31,208 nt of DNA, from the IMG/VR virus record IMGVR_UViG_3300027486_000018, positions 1-31,208 of that record. One strand, given 5' to 3'. Within the stretch, counting starts at the first letter, position 1. The number at the start of each line of letters is the position of its first letter. This DNA comes from a virus. Shown here one piece after another: positions 2,813-8,782 of this stretch. The translations under genes were made by a program, and so were the position numbers. Under the pieces are notes generated by a model. The model did no database searches, was not told the origin of the DNA, and saw only the letters and a program-made list of their open reading frames with translations.

Positions 2813-3379
2813 GTGAACGTTCCAAGTTCTATCCGAGCTGGTGACACGGTGCGTTGGCGTGATGTTGCTGGTATTGACAACCTAGGAAACATTGTCGGCA
2901 GCGCCGACTATGAACTGACGTACTGGCTGAGATATAACGCGGCTAGCGAGGGCGCATCAGTTGTCGGCACTGCCTATGGCACCGGATGGGAGTTCACCAT
3001 CGCGGCCAACGTGAGCAGTGGTTTTGACGCTGGCACGTGGTACTGGCAGGCGATTGCCAGCAAGGCCGGATCCGTCATCACGCTTGGCGCTGGTCAGCTG
3101 ATCGTGCAATCGGTGCTGTCCTATGCGGGCACACCAGGTGCATTTGACGGGCGCACGCAAGCGCAGATTGATCTTGATGCAGTACAGGCCGCAATCCGCG
3201 CGATTGTTAGCGCCGGCGCTAAGCAGTACAGCATCGGCAGCCGTAGCTTCACCAAGCTGGATTTAGGTGAGCTGATGGAGCGTGAAAGTAGGCTGAAGGC
3301 TGAGGTGAAGCGTGAACAGATGGCAAGCCTGATCGCTAACGGTCAAGGTAACCCACACAATCTGTTCGTGAGGTTCTGA
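2813..3379 (+). CDS. Head-tail connector-like protein upstream of portal
   Basis: 188-residue protein between the terminase and portal genes, the place of gpW-type connectors in lambda-like phages. The first ~110 residues are beta-rich ('AGDTVRWRD', 'ELTYWLRYN', 'TWYWQAIAS'). The last ~70 contain 'QYSIGSRSFTKLDLGELM' followed by a charged helix and the ending 'NPHNLFVRF', a pattern I associate with gpW/DUF6148-type C-terminal regions. It therefore looks like a connector domain joined to an extra N-terminal beta domain. The start is GTG at 2813 with a weak AAGG upstream. Its TGA overlaps the portal ATG by one base. Function is inferred mainly from position and the C-terminal motif. Confidence 0.65.
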   Translation: MNVPSSIRAGDTVRWRDVAGIDNLGNIVGSADYELTYWLRYNAASEGASVVGTAYGTGWEFTIAANVSSGFDAGTWYWQAIASKAGSVITLGAGQLIVQSVLSYAGTPGAFDGRTQAQIDLDAVQAAIRAIVSAGAKQYSIGSRSFTKLDLGELMERESRLKAEVKREQMASLIANGQGNPHNLFVRF

Positions 3380-4959
3380 TGGGATTGCGCACGCGGCTGT
3401 TCAAGGCAATGGGGTTTGAGCCGACACGGCCACGTGCGCGGGCGTATCAGGGTGCACGTGTTAGCAGGTTGACGGCTGACTGGGTCACCAGCGGCACCAG
3501 TGCTGACAGCGAGATCAAGTCAAGCTTCAAGGCATTGCGCAATCGTGCGCGGCAGCTGTGCCGTGACAACGACTATGCGCGGCAGGCGCTCCGCAGCATT
3601 CAGAACAATGTGATTGGGCACGGCATCAAGCACCAGTCACAGGTGCGGATGCTGCGTGGCGGCCGGCTTGATGAGGCCATCAACGGCCAGATCCATGAGG
3701 CATGGGAGCGGTGGATGCACAAGAGCCGCTGTGATGTGAGCGGCCTGCTGGGCTTCCACGATATGGAGCGCCTGCTATGCCGCAGCTTGGCGGAGAGCGG
3801 TGAGGTGTTCGTGCGGATGATCCGGCAGCCATTCGGTGGGTCGCGCGTGCCGTTCGCGTTGCAGGTGCTCGAGGCTGATTACCTCATCGACGATGACATC
3901 CCGCAGGCCGCGGCCGGTAACACGGTGCGGATGGGCATCGAGGTGGATGGCTACCTGCGGCCGCAGGCTTATCACTTCTACGCAAACCATCCGGGCGACA
4001 CATATGCGGGCAACCCGCGCACCAACGGGCGGCGTGTGCGCGTGCCTGCTGATGAGGTGATCCATCTTTTTCTCCCTGAGCGCCCCCAGCAGACACGAGG
4101 AGTCACGTGGTTCGCCTCGGCGCTGATGCGGCTGCACATGCTGCAGGGCTACGAGGAGGCCGAGGTGGTGCGGGCGCGGGCCTCGAGCGCACTGATGGGC
4201 TTCATCAGCAGCCCTGAAGGTGAGCTGATCGGTGATGAGATTTACGAAGGCGACCGGGTGAGTGAGTTCACGCCCGGTGTGTTCAAATATCTGGCGCCGG
4301 GCGAAAGCGTGACGGTGCCGGATCTGAACGCACCGGATGGCCAGTTGGAGCCGTTCACGCGTTCGATGCTGCGTGCTGTTGCTGCTGGTGTTGGTGTCAG
4401 CTTCGAGAGCATCAGCAAGAACTTCTCAGAGAGCAACTACAGCAGCAGCCGGCTGAGCCTGCTGGAGGAGCGCGACACGTACAAGGTGCTGCAGCGGTTC
4501 TTCATTGAGAACTTCCATCAGACCGTTTACGAGAACTGGCTCGAGATGGCGGTGTTGAGCGGTGAGCTCAAGCTGCCGGCGTATGAGACCAACCCAGATC
4601 GTTACCGCGCTAGCCGCTGGATTCCGCGCAGCTGGGAATGGGTGGATCCCCAGAAGGAAGTGAACGCCTACAAAGATGCGGTGCGCTGCGGTTTTAAGAC
4701 GCTGGGCCAGGTGATCAGCGAGCAGGGTGGTGATCTGGATGATGTGCTGGTGGCGCGTCAGGCTGAACTGGCGATGCTGGATGAAATGGACATCGTGCTC
4801 GATACTGATCCGAGCGAAGTGAACGCTGGCGGTGGCTCACAGCCCGCTGTGACGATGGGCGGCCAGCCGGCATTTGAAGATACGGATCCGCCAATGGGAG
4901 AAGAAGAGTACGAAGAGGAATCAGTCCTAGAAGATCCCACTGAGGGGACTGAAGACTGA
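3379..4959 (+). CDS. Portal protein, lambda family
   Basis: 526-residue portal of the lambda gpB family. Twelve copies are expected to form the ring through which DNA enters and to which the tail connector attaches. Typical landmarks are an Arg-rich start, 'RARQLCRDNDYARQALRSI' (about 53-71), 'NNVIGHGIK' (about 73-81), the wing region around 'LAESGEVFVRMI', and the 'SKNFSESNYSSSRLSLLEE' block (about 346-364). The C-terminal ~40 residues are very acidic (DDVL..., then EEEYEEE), as in other portals. It is joined to both neighbours by one-base TGATG overlaps. Length is normal. Confidence 0.95.
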   Translation: MGLRTRLFKAMGFEPTRPRARAYQGARVSRLTADWVTSGTSADSEIKSSFKALRNRARQLCRDNDYARQALRSIQNNVIGHGIKHQSQVRMLRGGRLDEAINGQIHEAWERWMHKSRCDVSGLLGFHDMERLLCRSLAESGEVFVRMIRQPFGGSRVPFALQVLEADYLIDDDIPQAAAGNTVRMGIEVDGYLRPQAYHFYANHPGDTYAGNPRTNGRRVRVPADEVIHLFLPERPQQTRGVTWFASALMRLHMLQGYEEAEVVRARASSALMGFISSPEGELIGDEIYEGDRVSEFTPGVFKYLAPGESVTVPDLNAPDGQLEPFTRSMLRAVAAGVGVSFESISKNFSESNYSSSRLSLLEERDTYKVLQRFFIENFHQTVYENWLEMAVLSGELKLPAYETNPDRYRASRWIPRSWEWVDPQKEVNAYKDAVRCGFKTLGQVISEQGGDLDDVLVARQAELAMLDEMDIVLDTDPSEVNAGGGSQPAVTMGGQPAFEDTDPPMGEEEYEEESVLEDPTEGTED

Positions 4960-7589
4960 TGGCAAACATCGCCGGCACTGAGATCAACCTGATGCCGACT
5001 GAAGGCATGAGGGAAGAAGCGCAGCGCTATCGAGATTGGAAGGCCGATGGTGAAGCGGGTGGCACTGAGGTCGCAGCGCGGCGTGCTGGTCAAATCCTGA
5101 GCGGTGATGAGCTGTCACCTGACACCGTGATCACGATGGCGGCATGGTTCGCCCGCCATGAGGTAGACAAGCAAGGTCAAGGATTCAGCCCTGGGGAGGA
5201 TGGCTATCCATCAGCAGGCCGCGTGGCATGGGCGGCATGGGGCGGTGATCCCGGCCAGACTTGGGCGAATGAGAAGGCGGATAGAATCAAGGCATTGCAG
5301 GATAGACAAATGGAAGAGGCGCGTCCTTATCCAAACGAACATGCTGCGCGAATGACTGATCCCGATCAGTACGATGAACTGCGCCGTGAGAATGATGCCG
5401 GCGGTGATGGCATTGATTTCATATATGGCATCAAAGAAGGCGAGAGCGAGATCCAGGCCGTGCGGTTCGATGCACAGCAGTTCACGCCAGCAGAAGCGCG
5501 CGCATGGTTGAGCGATCACGACATGGATCCGATCATGTTTGAGGAAGCAACAGGCGAGGAGCGCGTCCTGCGTGCTGAACCTGATGAGCTTTCCGAAGGT
5601 GATTTCGTGCAGTGGGATTCGAGCGGCGGCACTGCTCGCGGACGTATTGAGCACGTAATGCGCGAGGGCACGCTGGGCGTTCCCGGTACTGAGTTCAGCA
5701 TTGATGCAAGCGCTGAGGATCCTGCTGCATTGATTCGGATCTATCGCGAGGGTGAGGATGGATGGGAGGCCACCGAGACATTGGTGGGTCATAAGTTCTC
5801 AACGCTGCGCAAGATCGCTGAGTTGCGTGCAATGCCTGGCATCGGCCGCCATCAACGCGCTGAAATCACAACCTTTGATGAGGTTGAGGATCGTACTTAT
5901 GAGTTCCCATTCAGTTCCGAGTATCCCGTTGCCCGATACTTCGGCAATGAGATTCTGAGCCACGATCTCAAGGCAGCAGACCTGAGCCGTCTGAATGATG
6001 GCGCACCGTTGCTGTTCAATCACAACCCTGACAAGGTTATCGGCGTTGTGGAGCGTGCATATATCGATGGCAAGAAACGACGTGGTTATGCGCGTGTGCG
6101 GTTCAGCCGCAACCCATTCGCTCAGGAAGTCCTGAGTGATGTGAAGGATGGCGTTCTCCGAAATGTCTCCTTTGGCTACTCCATCGACAAAATGGAAGAG
6201 CGCGGCAGTGGTGACTTTGTTGCTACTGCCTGGTCTCCTTATGAAGTTTCCGTTGTATCCGTGCCGGCTGATCCCGGCGTCGGGATCGGCAGATCTTTGG
6301 AGGCCGAACAGGCTGCCTCGGCAGCACCTACACCTGATCCCATTCCTGCAATGGAAACCACCACCCCTGATCTGGCAGTGGTGCGGGCCGAAGCCGCTGA
6401 GGCTGAGCGCTCCCGCATCGCTGGCATCTCTGCACTGTGCGACAAGCACAACATGGCCGACCTCGGCCGCCAGCTGATCGAGTCTGGTCGTTCTATCGAC
6501 GATGCTCGCGCTGCTGTGCTCGATAACCTCGACATCAAACAGGAGCCTGTAAACATGAGCGCCGCTGAAATCGGCCTGACCGCGCAGGAGAGCCGCAGCT
6601 TCTCCTTCATGCGTGCCATCAACTATCTGGCAAACCCGACCGATCGCTCGGCCCGTGAGGCTGCTGCGTTCGAGATCGAAGCATCTGAAGCTGCTGCTGC
6701 AAAGCTCGGCCGTCAGTCCCGTGGCATCACCATCCCTCAGGATGTGCTGCGCCGTGATCTGAACGTTGGTGCTGCAACCGCTGGCGGCAACTTGGTTGCT
6801 ACTGAGCTGGATGCTGGCAGCTTCATCGATCTGCTGCGCAATGCCTCGGCTCTGGATCAGGCTGGCGCCACTGTGTTGACCGGCCTCACCGGCAACGTGG
6901 CTATCCCTCGCCAGTCGGGAGCGGGGACCGCTTACTGGGTTGCTGAGTCTGGCGCTCCTAACGAGTCGCAGCAGACCGTGGATCAGGTGAGCCTGACTCC
7001 CAAGACCGTGGCTGCCTTCACCGACTACAGCCGCCGTCTGATGATCCAGTCCTCCATTGACGTGGAGAACATGGTGCGCACTGACCTCGCCCGTGTGCTG
7101 GCACTGAAGATCGACCTGGCTGGTCTGTACGGCACCGGTTCCAACGGTGAGCCCCTGGGCCTGAAGCTGACCACCGGCATCGGCACTGAAGACTTTGCCG
7201 CTGACACCCCTACCTTCTCCGAGGTGGTGGCACTGGAGAGCGACGTGGCAACCGCTAACGCTCTGCTGGGTTCGCCCGTATATCTGATGAACGCCGCAAT
7301 GCGCGGTGGTCTGAAGACCAAGGCCAAGGATGCAGGTTCCGGCCTGTTCGTGATGGAAGGCAACGAGGTGAACGGCTACCGCGGTGTTCTGTCTAACCAA
7401 GTCGCTTCTGGTGATCTGTGGTTCGGCAACTTCGCTGACCTGATCATCGGCTACTTCTCCGGCCTGGATCTGATGGTTGACCCCTACACCAACAGCACCT
7501 CCGGCACCGTGCGCGTGGTGGCTATGCAGGATGTGGACATTGCAGTCCGTCACCCTGAATCCTTCAGCCGCGGCAACAACACCCTCTGA
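4959..7589 (+). CDS. Prohead protease fused to major capsid protein, with extra N-terminal domains
   Basis: 876-residue multi-domain structural protein. Visible layers: (1) about 15-110, a small helical domain with 'FARHEVDKQGQGF' and 'YPSAGRVAWAAWGGD'; (2) about 150-200, a segment with 'VRFDAQQFTPAEARAWL'; (3) about 210-286, an SH3/Tudor-like domain ('GDFVQWDSSGGTARGRIEHV'); (4) about 298-445, an HK97-type S78 protease with likely catalytic His355 ('LLFNHNPDKV') and Ser404 ('NVSFGYSI') and the closing 'SVVSVPADPG'; (5) about 465-535, a helical scaffold/delta-like segment; (6) about 545-876, an HK97-fold capsid ('AGGNLVATEL', 'AYWVAESGAPN', 'YGTGSNGEPLGLKL'). Protease and capsid are usually separate genes. 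Here one frame is open throughout, with a good internal ribosome site before Met533. Confidence 0.93.
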   Translation: MANIAGTEINLMPTEGMREEAQRYRDWKADGEAGGTEVAARRAGQILSGDELSPDTVITMAAWFARHEVDKQGQGFSPGEDGYPSAGRVAWAAWGGDPGQTWANEKADRIKALQDRQMEEARPYPNEHAARMTDPDQYDELRRENDAGGDGIDFIYGIKEGESEIQAVRFDAQQFTPAEARAWLSDHDMDPIMFEEATGEERVLRAEPDELSEGDFVQWDSSGGTARGRIEHVMREGTLGVPGTEFSIDASAEDPAALIRIYREGEDGWEATETLVGHKFSTLRKIAELRAMPGIGRHQRAEITTFDEVEDRTYEFPFSSEYPVARYFGNEILSHDLKAADLSRLNDGAPLLFNHNPDKVIGVVERAYIDGKKRRGYARVRFSRNPFAQEVLSDVKDGVLRNVSFGYSIDKMEERGSGDFVATAWSPYEVSVVSVPADPGVGIGRSLEAEQAASAAPTPDPIPAMETTTPDLAVVRAEAAEAERSRIAGISALCDKHNMADLGRQLIESGRSIDDARAAVLDNLDIKQEPVNMSAAEIGLTAQESRSFSFMRAINYLANPTDRSAREAAAFEIEASEAAAAKLGRQSRGITIPQDVLRRDLNVGAATAGGNLVATELDAGSFIDLLRNASALDQAGATVLTGLTGNVAIPRQSGAGTAYWVAESGAPNESQQTVDQVSLTPKTVAAFTDYSRRLMIQSSIDVENMVRTDLARVLALKIDLAGLYGTGSNGEPLGLKLTTGIGTEDFAADTPTFSEVVALESDVATANALLGSPVYLMNAAMRGGLKTKAKDAGSGLFVMEGNEVNGYRGVLSNQVASGDLWFGNFADLIIGYFSGLDLMVDPYTNSTSGTVRVVAMQDVDIAVRHPESFSRGNNTL
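6541..6557 (+). promoter_or_regulatory. Internal ribosome binding site and start before the capsid domain
   Basis: AGGAG at 6541-6545 is followed, nine bases later, by an in-frame ATG at 6555-6557 (Met533 of the fusion). Initiation here would give a 344-residue capsid-only protein. This is one of the best Shine-Dalgarno sites in a window where most genes have poor ones. It lies near the expected junction between scaffold and mature capsid. Confidence 0.55.
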
Positions 7590-8177: not shown

Positions 8178-8456
8178 ATGGCGTTCACTGAGGATCTGGA
8201 TGTATTCCTTGCAGACTTTGGCGTTAGCTGCACAGCTGGCGCCGTTACTGCAAAGGGAATCCTGGACATGCCAAGCCAGGTGATCAGCGATGGGATGGTG
8301 CTCAGCACTGACTACACGCTGACAACCAGAACCTCAAGCTTCGGCAGTCTCATTCGCGGCGACTCGATCACCGTGGATGGGACTGCTTACACCGTCAGAG
8401 AGACCATGCTGATGGATGACGGCAAGTTCGTGCAACTCGGATTGCAAAAGACATGA
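8178..8456 (+). CDS. Head-tail joining protein, gpFII-like
   Basis: 92-residue beta-rich protein resembling the lambda FII attachment family in length and layout: an N-terminal 'FLADFGVSCTAGAVTAKGIL', a central 'SSFGSLIRGDSITVDG' and a C-terminal strand 'DGKFVQLGLQKT'. Such proteins form the last head-completion ring, to which the tail binds. It lies between head and tail genes as expected. It starts two bases after the previous stop and ends in an ATGA overlap with the next gene. Confidence 0.75.
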   Translation: MAFTEDLDVFLADFGVSCTAGAVTAKGILDMPSQVISDGMVLSTDYTLTTRTSSFGSLIRGDSITVDGTAYTVRETMLMDDGKFVQLGLQKT

Positions 8457-8782
8457 GCACCATCTACGGCGGCAATGCGGATCGTCCGCAGAATATCCAT
8501 GCCTTTACCACGATCTCAGATGCCATCGGTTCATCTGCAGCAATCGAGGTTGATGGCACGGTCTTCACCACATTTGAGAAGATCACTGGCGGCCAAGTCA
8601 CCTATCACGTGCAAGGTTCGATGAACGGCACTGATTGGGCGAACATCGGCGAGGCCAAAACCAAGGATGCCGGCAACCATATCCATACCTACTGCGACTA
8701 TGCGGTGCGCTATCTCCGGCTCGATGTGACATCGATCAGCGCTGGCCGTAGCATCACGATGACTGTGTGCTGTGACTCATGA
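8453..8782 (+). CDS. Structural protein of unknown role at the head-tail boundary
   Basis: 109-residue protein with a beta-sandwich look ('VTYHVQGSMNGTDWANIGE', 'YAVRYLRLDVTSISAGRSI'), resembling small carbohydrate-binding-like or decoration modules. No catalytic motif is visible. Overlaps at both ends (ATGA with both neighbours) place it in the virion assembly operon, between the gpFII-like protein and the tail terminator candidate. It could be a virion surface or connector accessory protein. Confidence 0.65.
   Translation: MSTIYGGNADRPQNIHAFTTISDAIGSSAAIEVDGTVFTTFEKITGGQVTYHVQGSMNGTDWANIGEAKTKDAGNHIHTYCDYAVRYLRLDVTSISAGRSITMTVCCDS

Follow-up and report, generated by a model that had tools for sequence, protein, structure and literature searches.

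A module-protease-capsid frame in a phage late operon, probably a nested gene with a conserved internal start codon

How a phage whose prohead protease is fused to its capsid protein could avoid building hundreds of protease copies into each shell is the question raised by one gene of the IMG/VR virus record IMGVR_UViG_3300027486_000018, of which all 31,208 bases were analyzed here (the window). The late operon was siphovirus-like, with the order terminase, head-tail joining, portal, fusion, head-tail attachment, tail terminator, tail tube, and tape measure. The fusion started on the last base of the portal gene, which was also the first base of its ATG at 4959, and ran as a single intact open frame of 876 codons to a stop at 7589. 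In our reading, to which we give a probability of roughly 0.78, this frame is a nested gene that yields mostly a short form and, as the minor product, a long one, the two co-assembling via the capsid domain. The features concerned are as follows.

3379..4959, + strand: portal gene (Phage_portal_2, E 1.1e-107)
4959..7589, + strand: long ORF of 876 aa and 94.6 kDa, M1-M2-Tudor-S78 protease-scaffold-capsid (open frame, Pfam, PHROG)
4983..5324, + strand: module M1, all-helical, residues 9-122, phrog_2859 family (profile, AlphaFold2 model)
5328..5558, + strand: module M2, alpha/beta, residues 124-200 (profile, model)
5565..5822, + strand: module T, Hva1_TUDOR/SH3-like barrel, residues 203-288 (Pfam, model)
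5871..6260, + strand: S78 prohead protease domain, residues 305-434, with H355, S404, and E429 (Pfam, alignment, model)
6261..6371, + strand: disordered linker, residues 435-471 (pLDDT 26-32 over residues 441-470)
6300..6389, + strand: lowest synonymous diversity of the gene, codons 448-477 (15-codon windows)
6351..6353, + strand: conserved internal start codon ATG, residue 465 (cluster comparison)
6351..7589, + strand: putative nested gene, scaffold and capsid, 412 aa, 43.4 kDa (start conservation, constraint, model)
6372..6758, + strand: scaffold (delta-like) helices, residues 472-600 (full-length model; residues 526-544 at low confidence)
6555..6557, + strand: another candidate start, ATG at residue 533, preceded by AGGAG (limited to the window clade and its near relatives)
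6783..7586, + strand: putative mature HK97-fold capsid protein, residues 609-876 (alignment to PDB 8gta, E 8.9e-50)

Domains of the fused gene and its relatives

An earlier note on this DNA had recognized five or more layers in the frame, and Pfam, PHROG, and AlphaFold2 bore this out. The Pfam matches all lay above their cut-offs: Hva1_TUDOR (PF11160) at residues 214-260 (26.0 bits, cut-off 24.1), Peptidase_S78 (PF04586) at 319-441 (42.1 bits, cut-off 21), and Phage_capsid (PF05065) at 609-871 (145 bits, cut-off 24.2). In PHROG, residues 12-109 matched phrog_2859, labeled as function unknown (E 4.1e-25), and residues 304-875 matched phrog_617, "major head protein" (E 2.5e-167). In the N-terminal and protease parts, for which the note had proposed profile searches, the matches were phrog_2859, Hva1_TUDOR, and Peptidase_S78. 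Its protease residues His355 and Ser404 were correct, with E429 as the third; all three, corresponding to the His/Ser/Glu catalytic triad of HK97 gp4, were conserved without exception in an alignment of 309 protease domains, one from the window and 308 from other ORFs.

Structure prediction of the full protein, likewise proposed in the note, modeled protease, linker, and scaffold. The N-terminal 306 residues were predicted as three separate domains (AlphaFold2; pLDDT 84.9, pTM 0.45), and the full-length model (pLDDT 70.1, pTM 0.33) had protease strands at residues 308-433, a structureless linker at 435-471, and scaffold helices from 472. The Tudor barrel was superimposed on 4p5n with a Z of 6.3 and an rmsd of 2.8 over 63 residues, which may mean a common arrangement only; the structure comparison covered mainly residues 202-295 and barely M1 and M2, and gave Z 6-7 to Tudor/SH3 folds, a common level. 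The PDB yielded no sequence match at E ≤ 0.001: the best for the N-terminal part was MmeI (E 0.0057), and searching with M1 alone reached E 0.88 at best. Foldseek likewise found none in the PDB at this threshold. Against viral models, Foldseek gave 65 matches at E ≤ 0.001, several of them named prohead protease, XkdF, or portal protein, with the aligned part not given. The MmeI match (5hr4, E 0.0057, profile positions 99-170) was a weak one of the M2 region (about 5310-5600 of the window) to the C-terminal part of that restriction enzyme. Two further observations concern the surroundings: a small late gene at 8453-8782, between head-tail attachment and tail terminator, had a weak sub-cut-off match to F5/F8 type C (discoidin-like), and a 584-aa frame on the minus strand (5799-7553), antisense to protease and capsid, is probably a codon-usage artefact of GC-rich DNA.

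Relatives were collected by tblastn against named phages (231 records, 15 of them with at least 80% query coverage) and by scanning IMG/VR with four queries. The best 80 of 490-600 related stretches were taken for each query, and hence close relatives are favored among the resulting 317 distinct loci. From these best-80 lists, profile searches and a tally gave 263 complete capsid ORFs (242 distinct by DNA). Protease and capsid shared the frame in 262 of the 263, the exception being a fragment in L187, and at least one module was present in 246, again in a sample leaning to close relatives. The architecture, which the note had called unusual, is therefore not so in this sample, and it already stands in GenBank under "major capsid protein" or "major head protein" as single annotated CDSs in S-CBS1 and S-CBS3 (836 aa each), CRP-811 (816 aa), CRP-821 (974 aa), and CRP-406 (794 aa). 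The note had named a frameshift or sequencing error between 6260 and 6560, or close relatives always having separate genes, as grounds for dropping the fusion; near-identical contigs kept the frame, and with 262 of 263 complete relatives fused, both were rejected. Split frames were seen in L018, L085, L140, L187, and the isolate CRP-823. In the last (L004, 3980-6908), a run within M2 differs from that of CRP-821 by one base in length, either through an error or through a real mutation, and the annotation therefore splits the gene into two CDSs, both named "major capsid protein".

The part upstream of the protease varied in composition. Among the 263 ORFs, the arrangements were M1-T (74), M1-M2-T (57), M1-M2 (36), M1-X (18), M1 (17), none (17, including the L187 fragment), M2-T (16), X (13), M1-T-M2 (8), and, most rarely, T (4), M1-X-M2 (2), and M1-M2-X (1). 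Module X resembled DUF5824, with 27.8 bits in L394 and, below the cut-off of 25, 19.4 bits in CRP-821. Module borders in the alignment looked clean. The modules form a deck whose members are lost, swapped, and reordered independently of each other. In nine contigs (L052-L056, L058-L060, and L086), T was 54-60% identical to that of the window, M2 67-82%, and M1, protease, and capsid 82-93%, a divergence of T that would be expected from swapping or replacement of this module.

The annotated relatives resembled the window gene to different degrees. In the Synechococcus phages S-CBS3 and S-CBS1, the CDS that immediately follows the portal likewise encodes M1-M2-protease-capsid, but no Tudor module was found in it and the annotation names the capsid only. 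The Roseobacter phages CRP-811, CRP-821, and CRP-406 also have modules, protease, and capsid in one CDS, with decks different from that of the window (M1-T, M1-X-M2, and M1 without M2 or T). Fusion of protease and capsid as such is already known, from NCBIfam NF045541 and from Rhodobacter phages, where it is annotated as "major capsid and protease fusion protein". NF045541, the prohead protease/major capsid fusion, has the same layout in one frame; the window protein scored 183.9 bits over residues 309-548, below the curated cut-off of 525, and is thus not a member. PMC11409702 describes two prophage-like segments with a longer capsid gene containing a prohead protease domain, and the word "protease" was absent from the main text of PMC12629253. 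Neither a module-protease-capsid fusion nor an internal start in such a gene was described in the titles and abstract openings of the PMC matches listed, a collection with subscription papers mostly outside it.

The internal start codon and the constraint around it

The codons between protease and scaffold were read in 308 ORFs with both protease and capsid (287 distinct), which fell into 54 non-redundant clusters. An ATG was found 10-53 codons past the end of the protease profile. By a strict rule, it preceded the scaffold helix in 50 of the 54 clusters, and GTG stood at the homologous position in the other four; a start codon was thus kept in all 54 although the linker is otherwise variable. 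In the window this is ATG465, which in the full-length model sits between the disordered linker and the first scaffold helix.

The sequence context of these codons differed from that of other in-frame ATGs. A Shine-Dalgarno of -6 kcal/mol or lower preceded 25 of 51 sites (by a looser site rule), whereas among the remaining in-frame ATGs it preceded 63 of 1058 (Fisher p 5e-16); it occurred in several codon registers. The second residue was S, T, E, or D at 49 of 50 internal sites versus 368 of 1059 other ATGs. In the roseophage type, to which the clear Shine-Dalgarno at the internal ATG of CRP-811, CRP-821, and CRP-406 conforms, an AAGGAG-like stretch lay before the ATG and the next residue was Ser or Thr in 28 of 29 sites at or below -5 kcal/mol. 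The cyanophage type, which includes the window, was without a Shine-Dalgarno and had Glu or Asp next in 20 of 21 sites above -5 kcal/mol; S-CBS3 and S-CBS1, with the internal Met at 409 and 408, likewise lacked it. At ATG465 the duplex energy was +0.6 kcal/mol. Since only 5 of the 17 likely gene starts picked in the window reached -6 kcal/mol, a missing Shine-Dalgarno is commonplace here and does not exclude use of this start.

In both types, the RNA around the site was fairly open, with median percentiles of 0.83 (21 clusters) and 0.81 (23 clusters; together 44 of the 54) and a value of 0.83 for the window. Permutation of synonymous codons site by site gave p ≤ 0.05 at 4 of 26 sites in the Shine-Dalgarno group and 0 of 25 in the other, where a crude sorting had also placed four sites that do have a Shine-Dalgarno; most sites were non-significant because Lys-Glu codons readily give AAGGAG. 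An ATG was also present in the protease-scaffold linker of all eight other fusion phages inspected (Persinger, Mano, FoX2, Alexa, PPpW-3, ep3, VP882, and phiHAP-1; apparently module-free, judged by length), with duplex energies of -3.5 to -7.1. In the first six of these, it occupied a different alignment column from that of the modular family and was followed by a longer segment. An ATG in the linker may be a general feature of protease-capsid fusions.

Because the window type has no Shine-Dalgarno, its synonymous diversity was tested, normalized per amino acid and with residuals permuted within amino-acid classes. For the window clade, two window sizes and three thinnings were used, with p values family-wise within a run and not across runs. 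All 12 of the lowest 15-codon windows of the 876-codon gene lay within codons 448-477; at 73, 37, and 24 rows, p of the lowest was 0.029, 0.008, and 0.003, respectively. When windows of 9 codons were used, the minimum was at codons 448-456 (p 0.001-0.005), upstream of ATG465. In the S-CBS-type clade, also without a Shine-Dalgarno (25 rows), the six lowest 15-codon windows started at codons 412-419, just past Met409, and none of 1500 permutations was as low. The strongest synonymous constraint of the gene thus lies at or beside the internal start in both clades. In the CRP-811 clade, the minimum was away from the internal start, at codons 343-357, and the linker was too variable to score; in L003 that minimum falls inside the protease domain, just past the catalytic Ser, where few codons were usable. 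An overlapping gene in another frame was rejected as the cause of the constraint, as, across the 120 codons that surround the start, the most-open other frame stayed open in 26% of sequences in the window clade, 50% in the S-CBS clade (antisense), and 14% in the rest, and no other reading frame was open in more than half of any of the three groups.

A synonymous scan does not separate a start region from other nucleotide elements, and the 9-codon minimum lies upstream of the ATG. The constraint at 448-477 could accordingly mark an internal promoter or an RNA processing site, the conservation of the start codon being coincidental; we regard this as very unlikely, given ATG or GTG in 54 of 54 clusters, the bias in the second residue, and the correctly spaced Shine-Dalgarno in other lineages. 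Alternatively, the internal start is real but the window clade uses ATG 6555 (residue 533), in which case the capsid form would be 344 aa long and its propeptide 76 aa. Met533 was present in all 81 rows of the window clade, and, in the listed variants, at least 69 of them had CAGGAG upstream, with a duplex energy of -6.6, better than at ATG465. However, such a site at or below -4 occurred in only 6 of the 54 clusters, the constraint peaks around 465 and not 533, and the first scaffold helices would be dropped, all of which make this start improbable as the one used. A nested gene beginning at ATG 6351 remains our preferred reading.

Two probable products and the putative mature shell

In HK97, protease (gp4) and capsid (gp5) are encoded by two genes, and the elements are protease, delta-like scaffold, and capsid. 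Translation from 4959 would give the long form, with modules, S78 protease, scaffold, and capsid, and translation from ATG 6351 the short form, 412 aa of scaffold and capsid with a layout like that of gp5; where HK97 has two genes, the window would have one frame with an internal start. Nested in-frame genes with a protease form, a scaffold form, and a common C-terminus are known from lambda (C/Nu3) and herpesviruses (UL26/UL26.5). The part in common is the scaffold there, whereas in the window gene it would include the shell protein too.

A solved shell indicates what may remain of the precursor. The gene of Dinoroseobacter phage R4C encodes a homologous protease-capsid precursor with an ATG and a Shine-Dalgarno (-9.5) before the scaffold; unlike the window protein, it is 629 aa long and its S78 part lies near the N-terminus, which leaves no room for modules. 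The first residue of its shell chain (PDB 8gta) aligned with residue 609 of the window protein (E 8.9e-50). The chain is the last 268 of the 629 residues, beginning either at a cut or merely at the first modeled residue. According to PMC10276861, this shell is T=7 with 415 copies; a word search found neither "protease" nor "cleav" in the main text of that paper. By analogy, about 608 residues would leave the window precursor. The earlier statement that the modules must fit in or leave the prohead stands, as the R4C shell chain covers only the last 268 of 629 residues.

The earlier note had further supposed that every capsid subunit could bring along a protease of its own, together with three extra modules. 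Put fully, every shell subunit would be the 876-residue precursor, with protease at 1:1, all N-terminal parts removed in the prohead, and the internal Met incidental. Such a course is consistent with the single frame and its fusion in all but one of 263 complete relatives, with an R4C shell built from a fused gene, and with the lack of a Shine-Dalgarno at ATG465. It does not account for an internal ATG replaced only by GTG, for the enrichment of the Shine-Dalgarno, or for the focal synonymous constraint. Furthermore, residues 1-608 of 415 long copies amount to 27.6 MDa, or about 33,450 nm3 dry, versus 6.4 MDa for short copies, and would fill 0.75 of the lumen versus 0.17, where T=7 and the lumen radius of 22 nm are both assumed for the window phage; the volume comparison is thus suggestive only in speaking against an all-long shell. 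We consider it unlikely that all subunits are full precursors, and the note's supposition is probably wrong in view of the conserved internal start and the constraint in two clades.

The same conserved codon and constraint suggest that the shorter scaffold-capsid product is also made, and long-form subunits would therefore probably be the minority. The two forms would co-assemble through their common C-terminus, with most of the shell built from short subunits and the rarer long ones taking protease and N-terminal modules into the lumen. As the protease would be carried by these rarer subunits, its dose would be set by the ratio of the two starts, and protease and modules would enter by their tether to the shell, not through recruitment by contact. 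At maturation, a protease cut near residue 600 would release the scaffold, protease, and modules into the interior, and shell subunits of about 268 residues would remain. In the PMC literature searched, no gene of this kind with proteomics, N-terminal sequencing, or ribosome profiling was found.

Modules on other proteins

The modules were also found outside this gene. M1 preceded an S78 protease in phiPsal1, an XkdF-type protease in DC31, and, in Vibrio phage 1.214.O, a protein that matched DUF2213 weakly and below the cut-off; it also lay in or after the portal of two haloviruses; the portal gene of the window (3379..4959) contained a portal domain only, with no module found. Four free-standing and four fused M1 proteins from other phages matched the phrog_2859 profile, and an alignment of 15 viral M1 sequences, some free and some fused, showed an invariant RH pair and WGG motif. 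In RcCronus, the alignment ran upstream into the portal gene, which had suggested a portal-borne module; this was rejected, the portal C-terminus showing no module by eye.

A wider scan for M1 gave 44 cellular-genome loci, of which 31 had a complete free-standing M1 protein (≤ 170 aa), and, among the best 80 of 595 viral loci, one such protein. The free-standing proteins, of about 104-170 aa (L349-L389), came from Mesorhizobium, Patescibacteria, Woesearchaeota, Novosphingobium, and others; no common theme was apparent among the neighbors of the cellular ones (10 genes at 6 loci). Selection of ORFs with M1 behind a long N-terminal part yielded 38, of which 36 were viral and 2 genomic (L391-L465, L346, L370). 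Portal families were matched 38 times among them (Phage_portal 30, Portal_Mu 4, Phage_portal_2 4); on these profile matches all 38 are likely to bear a portal, though one member could match two families. Module X, as DUF5824, was matched in 16 of the 38 and often follows M1 there. Among 22 other M1 ORFs, S78 was matched in 4, DUF2213 in 3, and Mu-like_Pro in 1.

The prohead lumen is the side faced both by the C-termini of portals and by the N-termini of HK97-type capsid proteins. A role in the lumen would therefore be the simplest common factor for the modules, which may act as lumen scaffold, packaging aid, or cargo. As cargo, for example anti-defence proteins, they would be removable N-terminal tags ejected with the DNA, and being small, independently folded, swappable, and gained or lost singly would suit them to this. 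T4 internal proteins are a precedent for head cargo ejected with the DNA. P1 DarA and Hdf, inside the head (PMC12810830), are another. However, M1, alone or with X, also stands behind a portal domain, a position from which only cleavage would let it leave the virion, and M1 is a free cellular protein as well, so cargo seems a rather unlikely role.

Beyond the window, we propose only tentatively, at somewhat less than even odds, that a large group of marine phages builds its shell from such a nested gene, the long form carrying a swappable deck of lumen modules, and that the same modules on portals and other proteases are general, undescribed parts of the prohead lumen by which the recruitment of protease, the packing of DNA, or the loading of cargo is set. 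If the nested gene is real, genes annotated as "major capsid protein" in many phages would encode two products, the second start would set the protease dose, and the question posed at the outset, how a capsid-fused protease stays clear of such copy numbers, would be answered. The small domains recurring on head proteins may face the prohead lumen, and their role would be testable in the cultured phages CRP-406, CRP-822, S-CBS3, and R4C.
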